Below are positions 4,958 through 63,780 of a DNA stretch of 64,000 bases, one piece after another. The notes below the pieces were generated by a model. The model ran no database searches, was not told where the DNA came from, and saw only the letters and a list, made by a program, of their open reading frames with translations. The number at the start of each line of letters is the position of its first letter. Within the stretch, counting starts at the first letter, position 1. Source of the DNA: Verrucomicrobiota bacterium (GTDB taxonomy: Bacteria > Verrucomicrobiota > Verrucomicrobiia > Chthoniobacterales > UBA10450); NCBI GenBank assembly GCA_003219175.1, contig QHPU01000041.1, positions 61,784 to 125,783 on the forward strand, read 5' to 3'. Made by a program: the position numbers and the translations under genes.

Positions 4958-5033
4958 GATGAGGGACAAATTGCAGGGCAGGCGCTCCTGATTTCCGATT
5001 GCACAACCGGCAAGCGAGGCGCTTGCCCTACAA
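4921..5033. repeat. Two adjacent palindromic repeats at the 3' end of the M50 gene
   Basis: 4921-4965 folds CCCTCATC against GATGAGGG, with a nested TTCTCCCA/TGGGAGA pairing. 4971-5033 pairs TTGCAGGGCAGGCGC with GCGCTTGCCCTACAA (imperfect). The first palindrome contains the stop codon of the M50 protease; together they fill most of the gap before uvrC and could end transcription. Confidence 0.75.
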
Positions 5034-46161: not shown

Positions 46162-46209
46162 GCATCGGCTGCCAGCCTGTAGTTGCCGGCAGCTTGCCGG
46201 CAACATGCC
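46162..46209. repeat. REP-like hairpin upstream of the S9 peptidase
   Basis: GTTGCCGGCA-GCT-TGCCGGCAAC is a perfect 10-bp stem with a 3-nt loop. It is preceded by GCATCGGCTGCCAGCC, which resembles the CATCGGCT hairpin upstream of thyA. Confidence 0.8.
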
Positions 46210-46256: not shown

Positions 46257-48512
46257 ATGAAACTTAGTTCTTTCGCTTTCATGCTACTCGCTCTCGCGAC
46301 TGCGTCGGCACAATCGCCGCCGCAAAAACATCCATTTACCTTCGAAGACATGCTGAAGCTGAAACGAGTCGGGGCGCCGGTGCCGTCATCGGATGGGAAA
46401 TGGGTGCTGTTCGATGCCGAAGATGTCGACTTGGAAGCGAACACGAAGACTTCGCATCTCTGGATCGTGCCGGCGAACGGAGGTGAATCGCGCCGGCTCA
46501 ACCCGACGACCAATCACGAAGAACGACCACGGTTTTCACCCGATGGCAAACGGCTGATCTGGACGTCGAAAGCGACTGATCCGACGCAAATTTGGATGTG
46601 TGACTTCGAGACCGAAAGCGGTCGGCTGGAAGGTACACCTCGGCAACTAACGACAATCTCGACCGGTGCCGACGGCGGGATCTGGTCGCCGGATGGGAAG
46701 AACATCGTGTTTGTCTCAGCGGTGTATCCCGATTGCAAGGACGATTCCTGCGACAAGAAGCGCGACGACGAGCTTAAGAACAGCAAAGTCAAAGCCAAGA
46801 TTTTCAATCGCCAGTTCTATCGGCACTGGAATGCATTTACCGAGTTCAAGCGCAGGCATCTATTTGTCGTTAGCGCGGATGCACGGGGCGCGGACATCCT
46901 GTCTGCGGGGCAAGCAGGCGTCTCGCCTGCCGGAGTGCAACCACCAGACAAGATGTCTGCTGGCCCCACAGCCGGGACGGCTGCGCCCCGACAACAGCCG
47001 CGCGATCTGACGCCGGGCGATCACGATGTGCCGCCATTCAATCTTGGCGGTCAGGACATGTATGCGATTTCGCCCGACGGCCAGGAGCTCGCTTACACCA
47101 GCAACATTGATGAGGTCGAAGCAACGAGCACGAACAACGAAATTTTCGTCGTGCCGATCTCAGTAGGCTCCGCCGTCCCCGGCGGAAACAACCGCCAGTC
47201 CGGCTCGGACCCAAAGAAAATTTCCACCAGTCCCGGCGCCGATACCACGCCCCTCTATTCACCGGACGGAAAATATCTCGCCTGGCGTTCGCAAGCTCGC
47301 GCCGGTTTCGAATCCGATAAATGGCGGCTCCTCGTGCAAGATCGAAAAACTGGGAATACACGCGACCTAACCGAAAAGTTGGATCGATCCGTCGGGAGTT
47401 TCACCTGGACCTTGACGCCTCCCCCGCATGACAAACCGATAAGACCGATCATTTTCTCGGCAGAAGAATCGGGTGAATCACCATTGTGGCTGATCGATCT
47501 AGCGAGTGATGAAGCGCCTGCAAAGATTCCTAAACTTCACGCCGATGACGTGGTCTTTTCGGCAACCGGCGGCGAGTTAGGCACTCTTTTCTTTACCAAC
47601 CAATCGGTCAGTACGCCAAATGAGATTTGGTCGATCAAGTTTCCGGGGCAAGAAAAGCCCGCGCCATTAACCCACATGAACGACGCGCTGCTGTCGCAGA
47701 TCGACATGCAGCCGTTGGAATCGTTCACGTTCAAAGGCGCGAATGACGAAGACGTCCAGGGATTCATGGTCAAGCCGCCGGGATTTGATCCGAATAAGAA
47801 ATATCCACTGAAATTTTTGATCCACGGTGGACCGCAAGGCGCGTGGGGAAATTCGTGGTCGTATCGGTGGAACCCGGAGTTGTTCGCGGCGGCCGGGAAT
47901 TACGTCGTCGTAATGATCAACTTTCACGGCTCGACCGGGTACGGGCAGAAGTTTACTGATTCGATCAGCGGCGATTGGGGCGGGAAGCCGTATGAAGATC
48001 TGATGAAGGGACTCGATTACGCGGAGAAGAAGTATCCGTTCATCGACAAGAATCGCGAAGCTGCGTTGGGGGCGAGTTACGGCGGGTGGATGGCCAACTG
48101 GTTATTGGGCCATACCGACCGATTCAAGTGCATCGTGTCGCATGACGGCATGTTCAACACCGAATCGGCTTATGGAACGACGGAAGAACTCTGGTTTCCG
48201 GAATGGGAATTCAAAGGGCCGCCATGGAAACAGCGCGAGCTCTATCGGAAATTTTCGCCGCACCTGTTCACCGACAAATTTAAGACGCCGACGCTGGTCG
48301 TACACGGCCAGAACGATTACCGCCTCGATGTCAGCGAAGGTTTTCAGCTTTTCACTACGCTGCAGCGGCTGAAGGTGCCGTCCAAGATGTTGTATTTTCC
48401 CGATGAAGGGCACTGGGTGCTTAAACCGCAGAACTCACGGCTTTGGTACAAGACGGTGAACGACTGGGTCGATCAATGGTGCGGTTTGAGCGGCACGGGC
48501 GAGCGCCCCTAA
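46257..48512 (+). CDS. S9 family prolyl oligopeptidase/dipeptidyl aminopeptidase, secreted
   Basis: 751 aa. A signal peptide (MKLSSFAFMLLALATASAQS) is followed by a beta-propeller with repeated SPDGK motifs (46-500), then an alpha/beta-hydrolase domain. The catalytic triad is Ser607 (GASYGGW), Asp in VHGQNDYRLD and His in PDEGHWV. It cleaves peptides in the periplasm or outside. The propeller contains two in-frame repeat-derived insertions, about residues 210-245 (ADILSAGQAGVSPAG...) and 303-319 (GSAVPGGNNRQSGSDP). The ATG at 46257 begins at the signal peptide; the long ORF-track upstream part is another gene's shadow. Confidence 0.92.
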   Translation: MKLSSFAFMLLALATASAQSPPQKHPFTFEDMLKLKRVGAPVPSSDGKWVLFDAEDVDLEANTKTSHLWIVPANGGESRRLNPTTNHEERPRFSPDGKRLIWTSKATDPTQIWMCDFETESGRLEGTPRQLTTISTGADGGIWSPDGKNIVFVSAVYPDCKDDSCDKKRDDELKNSKVKAKIFNRQFYRHWNAFTEFKRRHLFVVSADARGADILSAGQAGVSPAGVQPPDKMSAGPTAGTAAPRQQPRDLTPGDHDVPPFNLGGQDMYAISPDGQELAYTSNIDEVEATSTNNEIFVVPISVGSAVPGGNNRQSGSDPKKISTSPGADTTPLYSPDGKYLAWRSQARAGFESDKWRLLVQDRKTGNTRDLTEKLDRSVGSFTWTLTPPPHDKPIRPIIFSAEESGESPLWLIDLASDEAPAKIPKLHADDVVFSATGGELGTLFFTNQSVSTPNEIWSIKFPGQEKPAPLTHMNDALLSQIDMQPLESFTFKGANDEDVQGFMVKPPGFDPNKKYPLKFLIHGGPQGAWGNSWSYRWNPELFAAAGNYVVVMINFHGSTGYGQKFTDSISGDWGGKPYEDLMKGLDYAEKKYPFIDKNREAALGASYGGWMANWLLGHTDRFKCIVSHDGMFNTESAYGTTEELWFPEWEFKGPPWKQRELYRKFSPHLFTDKFKTPTLVVHGQNDYRLDVSEGFQLFTTLQRLKVPSKMLYFPDEGHWVLKPQNSRLWYKTVNDWVDQWCGLSGTGERP
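46886..46991. repeat. Hairpin repeat block inserted in frame in the S9 peptidase
   Basis: GCAGGCG-TCT-CGCCTGC (46914-46930) and CAGACA-AGA-TGTCTG (46945-46959) are perfect-arm hairpins, flanked by GACATCCTGTC and a GC-rich block (CCGGGACGGCTGCGCCCCG). All is read through as coding sequence. Confidence 0.75.
47161..47216. repeat. Second in-frame repeat in the S9 peptidase, with family A copy 6
   Basis: GCCAGTCCGGCTCGGACC (47194-47211) is an exact consensus copy inside the coding region, preceded by GCCGTCCCCGGCGG (hairpin CCG-TCCC-CGG). It encodes RQSGSDP in a propeller loop. Confidence 0.8.
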
Positions 48513-48513
48513 C

Positions 48514-48627
48514 GGAACATAGACTTTCAGTCTGTGCGCCCAGCGGATCGCAAGTTAGAAAACTTGCGCCACATTTTTCAGCGGGTTGCAAACCCGCTGG
48601 GCGCACAGGCCGGGAGGCCTATGTTCC
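48514..48627. repeat. 114-bp terminal-inverted-repeat element between convergent genes
   Basis: GGAACATAGACTTTCAGTCT... and ...AGGCCGGGAGGCCTATGTTCC form the outer arms, with CTGTGCGCCCAGCGG/CCGCTGGGCGCACAG as a perfect 15-bp inner stem. CGCAAGTTAGAAAACTTGCG is an internal hairpin. It fills the intergenic space almost exactly and supplies part of the helicase stop codon. MITE-like or two-way terminator. Confidence 0.85.
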
Positions 48628-61966: not shown

Positions 61967-63202
61967 TCACGCTGCCTTTCGGTCGCCCGCTTCCAACATT
62001 CGGACGCGCTGCTCTTTGAGCGGCAGGCGAATGGTCAGAGTCAATCCCTTGCCTTCCGTGCTTTCGATTGCGAGTTCGCCGCCGTGTTCGCGGACAATGC
62101 GTCTAACGATTAATAGACCAAGACCGGTCCCGGACGCCTTGGTGGTGTAGTACGGTTCGAAGACGTGACTTAGAGCTTCCGCTGACATTCCCCCGCCATT
62201 ATCGATGAAACTGACGCGCACATGCGATTCGTCCCGATCGGTTCGAATCCGCAAGATACCGCGCCGTTTCATCGCTTCGAAGCTGTTTTTGATAACGTTG
62301 TAAAACGCCTGCTTCATCTGGTCTCGATCGAGTTGGAGTAATGGCAGGTCGGAGTGCAGTTCCGTTTCCACGACAATGTCGCGCGCTTCGATTTCGGCGG
62401 CAAAGAAACGCACCGCTTCCTCCACCATGGTGTTGATATTTCCCGGCCGGAGCTGTGGACGAGACGGCCGGATGGCCCGCAGGAATTGACTGACGATGGA
62501 ATCGAGCCGGTTGATTTCGCCGCGGCAGATATCGATGGAGTGCCGGAGTTCTTCGCGGGCTTTACCTTTTAGTTTGCGTGCCTGTCGCTCCATCAACTGC
62601 AAGTGGATGTTCAGGGAATTAAGGGGATTGCCTAGTTCATGGGCGACACCGGCGGCGAGCAAGGTGAGCGCGTTCAATCGCTCGCTCTCAATCGTTTTTT
62701 CCGCTGTCCGCCGGCTCTCAGTGATGTCGCGCATGATAATGGCGTAGCCGACCTGCTCCGTTGTCGCCGCGACTGTCGATCCCCGGTCCGAACTGGGCGG
62801 ATGGTTACCGGAGGTGTCGGCTACAGACGCATCTCGCGGCTCGATGACGAGGGGCACGATGTAAAAGTTGATGAACCGATTTCGCGGATAAAAAATTTCC
62901 AAGTCGCGGGTGACAGGACCGCCGCTGTGGGTCAACGCGTTCCAATCGAGACCCTGCACTCGTTCGTCGAGTTGTTTGCCGATCGAATCTTCGCCCGCGA
63001 GTCCAAAAAGCTCGCCAGCCGCGTCATTCAAATAGGTGATGCGTCCGGACGAATCGGTGACGATGATTCCTTCCTGAATGGCGTTGAAAACTGTCTCGAG
63101 AAATCCTTTCTCCTGAGCCAGGCGCAGCAAATAATTCTGCACCTCTTCCGGCCCGATCTTACCGAGCCGCCCGATCAATTTTTCGAGAAAGCCAGCTTTC
63201 AT
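61967..63202 (-). CDS. PAS-domain sensor histidine kinase
   Basis: 411 aa, no transmembrane helix, so cytosolic. A PAS domain (residues 34-160: ETVFNAIQEGIIVTDSSGRITYLND) precedes the dimerisation/phosphoacceptor His188 (GVAHELGNPLNSL) and the ATPase domain (NVIKNSFEAM, FIDNGGGMS, GTGLGLLIVRRI). It is expected to phosphorylate the NtrC-type regulator just downstream. About residues 124-150 of the PAS region (ASVADTSGNHPPSSDRGSTV) look like inserted repeat-related DNA. Its ATG overlaps the RAYT stop by 4 nt. Confidence 0.93.
   Translation of the reverse strand: MKAGFLEKLIGRLGKIGPEEVQNYLLRLAQEKGFLETVFNAIQEGIIVTDSSGRITYLNDAAGELFGLAGEDSIGKQLDERVQGLDWNALTHSGGPVTRDLEIFYPRNRFINFYIVPLVIEPRDASVADTSGNHPPSSDRGSTVAATTEQVGYAIIMRDITESRRTAEKTIESERLNALTLLAAGVAHELGNPLNSLNIHLQLMERQARKLKGKAREELRHSIDICRGEINRLDSIVSQFLRAIRPSRPQLRPGNINTMVEEAVRFFAAEIEARDIVVETELHSDLPLLQLDRDQMKQAFYNVIKNSFEAMKRRGILRIRTDRDESHVRVSFIDNGGGMSAEALSHVFEPYYTTKASGTGLGLLIVRRIVREHGGELAIESTEGKGLTLTIRLPLKEQRVRMLEAGDRKAA
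62785..62798. repeat. Degenerate family A-like copy inside the histidine kinase
   Basis: GGTCCGAACTGGGC resembles GGTCCGAGCCGGACTGGC with the central AGCCGG lost. It lies in the extra loop of the PAS domain. Confidence 0.4.
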
Positions 63203-63696
63203 CCTACCCTTTCCAATTCCTCTACCGTACCGGTGTAAGGCCAATCTTCGGCCGAATGAACCAGCCCCGCTCTCACCGGATTATGGCGAACATAGTCCCA
63301 TTTTTGCGCATAACTCTCTTCCGAACGCAGAACATGATCAAAGAACTCGCGTTGCCACAGACTGGTTTCGGCGTTGGCCTTTGTAGCCGCGGTCGCTGGC
63401 CGCGGCTGAACGGCGCGAATCCTTCGACTCGTCCACGACTTCCATTCCCGCATAAAATCAGAAAGCCTCTTGGCATCACGTTCCGGCGCACAGAAAAAAT
63501 GCACGTGATCGGGCATGATGACGTACGAACCAATTGCCGATTGATGTCGCTCACGTGCCTGGCGCAGTTCGTCTACCAAAACCTCCGCTATGACATCTCT
63601 TATCAGGATCGGGCGGCGTCTAAACGTACAGACCGTGACGAAATAGATTGGAAACTCAATGCATACGCGATCGAGACGCTGCAGATGTTTGTGCAC
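63199..63696 (-). mobile_element. REP-associated tyrosine transposase (RAYT)
   Basis: 165 aa Y1/HUH transposase. YFVTVCTFRRRPIL and YVIMPDHVHFFCAP give the HUH metal site (DHVH); WQREFFDHVLRSEESYAQKWDYVRHNPVRAGL holds the candidate catalytic Tyr. RAYTs nick single-stranded REP sequences and are thought to spread REPs rather than themselves. Between SRRIRAV and SLWQREFF about 15 extra residues (QPRPATAATKANAET) are encoded by a REP-like palindrome. An inverted copy of the same palindrome lies 58 nt upstream. The GTG start is accepted. The stop overlaps the kinase start (ATGA). Confidence 0.9.
63381..63407 (+). repeat. REP-like palindrome inside the RAYT coding region
   Basis: AGCCGCGG-TCGCTGG-CCGCGGCT core with perfect 8-bp arms, preceded by TTGT. 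It matches the copy at 63754-63780 at 26 of 27 positions in opposite orientation. Confidence 0.9.
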
Positions 63697-63753: not shown

Positions 63754-63780
63754 AGCCGCGGCCGGCGACCGCGGCTACAA
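63754..63780 (-). repeat. REP-like palindrome between RAYT and pnp
   Basis: AGCCGCGG-CCGGCGA-CCGCGGCT followed by ACAA, the inverted counterpart of the copy in the RAYT gene. It lies in the 104-nt gap between pnp and the transposase. Confidence 0.9.

Follow-up and report, generated by a model that had tools for sequence, protein, structure and literature searches.

Two propeller loops of an S9 peptidase from a verrucomicrobial soil bacterium very probably derive from in-frame insertions of small mobile REP/REPIN elements

The window analysed here is a stretch of 64,000 nucleotides from a Verrucomicrobiota bacterium (contig QHPU01000041.1), and the gene under study encodes a peptidase whose coding sequence contains two stretches of hairpin-rich DNA. 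The features of this gene and its immediate surroundings are the following.

46257–48512, + strand: S9 family peptidase (prolyl oligopeptidase family) with a signal-like N-terminal sequence, a WD40-like propeller and a catalytic domain
46179–46203, + strand: intergenic GTAG-tagged hairpin upstream of the peptidase start (hairpin scan)
46884–46994, + strand: insert 1, codons about 210–246, decayed composite hairpin element of the GTAGCACAGACATC family, tag lost here, in frame
47163–47213, + strand: insert 2, codons about 303–319, GTAG hairpin plus family A unit, in frame
47163–47186, + strand: GTAG-tagged hairpin in insert 2, GTAG-GCTCCGCCGTCCCCGGCGGA (GTAGGCTCCGCCGTCCCCGGCGGA) (hairpin scan)
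47193–47211, + strand: family A unit CGCCAGTCCGGCTCGGACC in insert 2, with its 16-mer core at 47196–47211 (pattern search with reversed control)
48513–48626, no strand assigned: intergenic composite multi-hairpin element GGAACATAG...CTATGTTCC, of a family that also fills site 1 in orthologue L014

The protein matches Pfam PF00326 (2.4e-60) and PF07676, and Ser607, Asp687 and His719 occupy invariant catalytic columns in an alignment of 70 homologues. With both the Ser-Asp-His catalytic domain and the N-terminal propeller present, it belongs to the S9 (prolyl oligopeptidase) peptidases, and the signal-like N-terminus suggests that it is secreted. An AlphaFold2 model built from the 70 homologues (m713036c5e113), which replaces a poor earlier model from a shallow alignment, reached a mean pLDDT of 87, and its top Foldseek match was the S9 carboxypeptidase 8wt1 (TM 0.78 by query). 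Residues 216–238, within insert 1, form the sole internal segment with a pLDDT below 50 and are flanked by strands 199–206 and 249–250; insert 2 averages 61–65 and lies between strands 295–300 and 320–321. In the predicted fold, both inserts occupy strand-to-strand turns of neighbouring propeller blades, as the original prediction had proposed in placing them between propeller strands, and the two sites seem to be turns of one kind on adjacent blades.

At the DNA level, the two hairpins first read in codons 210–246 (GCAGGCG-TCT-CGCCTGC and CAGACA-AGA-TGTCTG) are both present, as is the family A copy attributed to the second stretch; the GTAG-tagged hairpin of insert 2 comes in addition to what had been described. 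Insert 1 is made of several hairpins and has decayed; elements related to it start with GTAGCACAGACATC and finish with GTGCTAC or a near variant. The GTAG tag is present in insert 2, decayed in insert 1 and absent from family A, and insert 2 holds a single GTAG hairpin with no inverted pair. Folded as single-stranded DNA, both inserts are more stable than their shuffled counterparts (z of −2.94 for insert 1 and −3.43 for insert 2).

Orthologues were found in 24 of 58 genomes in a genus set that includes some more distant relatives and in 42 of 83 genomes in a family set, the genomes compared being largely metagenome assemblies. Alignment to close homologues gives a good match on both sides of each stretch and strong divergence within, and residues about 210–246 and 303–319 stand out as repeat-derived insertions relative to orthologues whose sites are bare. 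Where bare, each site consists of a short turn, for example FVVPTEGGTPRDLT at site 1 and FIVPMAGGTPKKIS at site 2; most orthologues are short at site 2 (for example VPMAGGTPKK). The idea of inserted repeats would have been undermined by finding these loop sequences, with normal codon use, in distant lineages. In homologues from Acidobacteria, Bacteroidota and Ignavibacteria, the aligned block instead mostly spans 18 residues at each site, and the longer site 1 loops of some Acidobacteria are unrelated in sequence. In the set of 41 family-level orthologues, site 1 is filled in 29 and site 2 in 12, with at least nine repeat families at the former and at least seven at the latter, as labelled by eye. 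The gene studied here shares its site 1 family (GTAGCACAGACATCTTGTCTGTG) with L002, L003, L013, L268 and L272; a second family (GGTAGGGCGAGACTCTGTCGAGCC) occurs in L005, L009 and L012, a third (GTAGAGGCAGGCGTGTCGCCTGC and close forms) in L269, L270, L271, L276, L006 and L008, and family A itself in L011 and L015. Several inserts, including those of L269, L009 and L273, have GTAG...CTAC ends and are inverted REP pairs, or REPINs. A third place, at residues 545–548 of the catalytic domain, is occupied by a REP insert in L014 and by a palindrome in L004. Both stretches of the present gene keep the frame, as anticipated. Frame keeping is not absolute, since the orthologue L289 (genome G059) has a frameshift at site 1 (around L289 1180–1200), which may be what a lost insert left behind or an error of assembly.

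Loops of variable length might simply evolve fast, with hairpins arising by chance or from base composition and without any mobile element. The Acidobacteria just mentioned lend this some colour, since their unrelated site 1 sequences indicate that the turn tolerates length change anyway. The hairpin content of the inserts mainly refutes it: perfect stems of at least 7 bp occur in 85% of long site 1 inserts (n=26) and 64% of long site 2 inserts (n=11), whereas windows of matched length from other parts of these genes gave 4% and 1%, respectively. In two further loops of the protein that vary in length (residues about 405–432 and 458–472), such stems were present in 0% and 2% of cases, which is background, and the repeats are therefore not a general property of variable loops. 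Exact copies throughout the genome, GTAG tags, and like hairpins elsewhere and beside transposase genes (see below) also speak against chance, which we consider very improbable as an explanation.

GTAG-tagged hairpin pairs are the hallmark of REP/REPIN elements. In an unbiased scan of 455 kb of this genome for the tetramer beside hairpins, GTAG ranked first at 8.8 times background, and a looser scan of the same 455 kb returned 73 GTAG hairpins, a high copy number, against 12 in shuffled sequence. CT or TT directly precedes GTAG in 41 of the 73 hairpins, against about 14% in the background; in Escherichia coli, TnpA-REP cuts at CT and requires GTAG for activity (PMC8266576). A GTAG-preceded hairpin is found in insert 2 and in most of the site 1 and site 2 families of orthologues, and inverted pairing is seen in orthologue inserts as well as in the REPs of the aconitase and ligase genes of this genome. 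Genome-wide, most GTAG hairpins lie outside homology-supported ORFs, a distribution expected if insertions in genes are mostly removed, and intragenic copies are an accepted minority among GTAG REPs (PMC3733652). From these sequence features, most insert families are identified as GTAG-tagged REP hairpins or REPINs of the RAYT kind. Some GTAG hairpins inside ORFs (such as L093 9589 and L104 12351) were not counted as REPs and are probably chance coding matches. Assembly of repeat families from k-mers over the 455 kb recovered little besides family A, REP copies being too varied. A separate observation concerns GTAG hairpins located just upstream of the apparent starts of uvrC-, mutL-, dapF- and dapB-like genes and within the stop-to-stop frame, where gene callers may consequently over-extend the proteins.

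Window 5009–5027: start-adjacent GTAG hairpin
L104 3440–3458: start-adjacent GTAG hairpin
L093 447–464: start-adjacent GTAG hairpin
L093 2353–2374: start-adjacent GTAG hairpin

A candidate mobiliser is encoded in the same window.

63199–63696, − strand: RAYT gene (REP-associated tyrosine transposase; NCBIfam NF047646, 140 bits for a cut-off of 80; PF01797)
63383–63405, + strand: GTAG REP GTAGCCGCGGTCGCTGGCCGCGG, in frame within the RAYT gene (hairpin scan)
63756–63778, − strand: inverted GTAG REP of the same family as GTAGCCGCGGTCGCTGGCCGCGG, beside the RAYT gene (hairpin scan)

Around most small RAYT genes sampled from relatives, GTAG hairpins lie no further than about 300 bp away, often in inverted orientation on the two sides. 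The window RAYT has its two REPs from one family, most of the other small RAYTs sampled do likewise, and the families differ from gene to gene. The RAYT of genome G006 (L244) likewise holds a REP of its own family, in the matched stretch. One arm of the L273 insert (GTAGAGGCGCTTGTCTCAAGCGCC) is an exact match to a REP beside a RAYT gene (L265) from another species of the same genus. Such associations make it probable that RAYT proteins move these repeat copies in the cell. No RAYT gene flanked by the insert 1 family (GTAGCACAGACATC) was found among those sampled and family A is untagged, so that mobilisation by RAYT is the least secure step of this reading for both. As for the larger IS200-like Y1 transposases, these were set aside as mobilisers, most of them having no GTAG hairpins alongside.

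The peptidase is one of several genes that carry such repeats. In the same genome, in-frame GTAG REPs occur in genes read from their sequence as encoding aconitase, a metallo-beta-lactamase/DNA ligase fusion (in two linkers), PutA and MiaB. The aconitase loop is mostly bare in relatives (16 residues in the block) and somewhat longer in several members of the genus, and in L298 it contains a family A copy. The linkers of the ligase fusion carry differing REP pairs in most genus members.

L091 12716–15673: fusion of metallo-beta-lactamase-like and ATP-dependent DNA ligase-like domains, both linkers of which carry REP pairs across the genus

Among 90 reciprocal best pairs with one relative, we counted 12 insertions of at least 8 residues, too few to give a genome-wide rate, and six of the 12 had a stem of at least 6 bp where 8% would be expected. 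Exact matches to the 16-mer of family A (CAGTCCGGCTCGGACC) number 45 across the 3.24-Mb genome, and the reversed control has none. Family A is a unit of about 21 bp (WAAYGCCAGTCCGGCTCGGACC) of near-constant sequence, with unrelated flanks and without a GTAG tag, and its copies are found within other repeats (L054, L056, L060, L062) and within genes. Composite elements of about 110 bp with several hairpins (window 48513–48626; L350–L356) end in GGAACATAG...CTATGTTCC or GTAGCACAG...CTGTGCTAC; their layout is conserved and their hairpin stems vary, and the GTAG tag is absent from the GGAACATAG composites.

The diversity of families at a single turn could also have arisen if recombination or gene conversion among resident repeats had rewritten one ancient insert, rather than through fresh transposition each time. 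The neighbouring orthologues L001 and L014, which share the same flanks around different elements, would fit such rewriting, as would the composite elements that hold their layout while their stems differ and the nesting of family A in other repeats. On the gene tree, which was built without the two insert sites, bare orthologues are nevertheless interleaved with filled ones. Parsimony counts 21 changes at site 1 (20 with sub-families merged) and 12 at site 2, numbers that are indicative since many forks are weakly supported and the families were labelled by eye. Fresh insertion fits better with L008 and L005, each of which carries one family at both sites and has sister sequences without an insert at site 2. 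Neither a target-site duplication nor a clean empty site was reconstructed in the orthologue comparison. We regard rewriting of a single old insert as possible, though on balance unlikely.

Whether the inserts serve the enzyme or are merely endured can be approached through their rate of change. In shared inserts, pN/pS lies mostly between 0.3 and 1.3, with extremes of 0.28 and 3.85 that are based on few changes; outside the inserts it is 0.17–0.33 (about 0.2), and the inserts are higher in every pair. Retention for a function such as substrate access, surface properties or an effect of the hairpin on the mRNA could be argued from values well below 1 in some shared inserts (0.28–0.45) and from recurrence in the same gene. 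Values near 1 in many pairs, always exceeding those of the rest of the gene, argue against it, as do the unrelated peptides that different families would specify at one place and the relatives that do without an insert; a retained function seems to us improbable. The pattern fits relaxed constraint, and tolerated passengers suit it better than a conserved function. We infer that the inserts are kept through tolerance rather than for a useful role, and their open frames within a conserved gene suggest that they are translated into protein loops.

Taken together, both loops very probably originated as in-frame insertions of small mobile REP/REPIN elements, likely copied by RAYT proteins and held in place by the tolerance of the loops. 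Non-autonomous elements, mostly GTAG-tagged REP hairpins and their inverted pairs, would have inserted in frame at both sites, most likely copied via single-stranded DNA by the RAYT/TnpA-REP transposases of this genome. Both landing places would be beta-turns that tolerate additional residues, on neighbouring propeller blades, and selection would have purged the copies that broke the frame or needed parts of the protein, which would leave the survivors in frame and confined to loops. Across related species, different REP families have re-hit or rewritten the same turns many times. A bolder and rather doubtful extension is that a few loops of conserved enzymes are long-lived landing sites, overwritten by successive RAYT/REP families and with landing guided to the site (for instance by a resident hairpin) beyond what filtering by selection alone would produce; if so, RAYT turnover would continually feed new loop sequence to proteins.

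In these soil Verrucomicrobia, mobile DNA hairpins have apparently landed repeatedly in working genes and become extra surface loops of proteins. The series of filled orthologues, with bare relatives as natural controls, offers a well-controlled setting in which to ask whether proteins gain usable sequence from small mobile repeats. It widens the range of intragenic GTAG REPs to soil bacteria resembling Candidatus Udaeobacter, with a likely mobiliser in the same genomes; in the literature searched, with subscription papers mostly outside reach, REPs inside genes were not reported for Udaeobacter or Chthoniobacter.

GTAG REPs lying in frame within genes are known already, and the present one is a further, unusually clear case. 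GTAG and CGTC REPs have been described inside genes, with the largest number of intragenic GTAG copies in Opitutus terrae, itself a Verrucomicrobium, and with the proposal that intragenic REPs may occupy flexible linkers or loops as tolerant places (Di Nocera et al. 2013, PMC3733652); in the same study, recB of two Xanthomonas species carries different REPs at roughly one site. The Rickettsia palindromic elements, of which RPE-4 and RPE-6 are CGTC-tagged (PMC3733652), work alike and form a separate group, since the families described here are mostly tagged by GTAG and are found beside RAYT genes. With the REPIN/RAYT systems of Pseudomonas and E. coli (PMC3116915, PMC8266576) they share inverted REP pairs, the GTAG tag, CT before the tag and a REP-flanked RAYT; the repeats of those systems are mostly intergenic, whereas here an appreciable minority is intragenic. 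A close parallel is O. terrae, where GTAG-tagged hairpins also lie in frame in conserved genes, there often as dimers coding for 20–30 residues (PMC3733652). Unlike that study, the present analysis follows the same loops across about 40 species and counts at least nine families at one of the sites; it also has control loops, a gene tree and a structure model, and takes in the RAYT genes of this group. What is new is therefore depth: one protein and two turns followed through many events.
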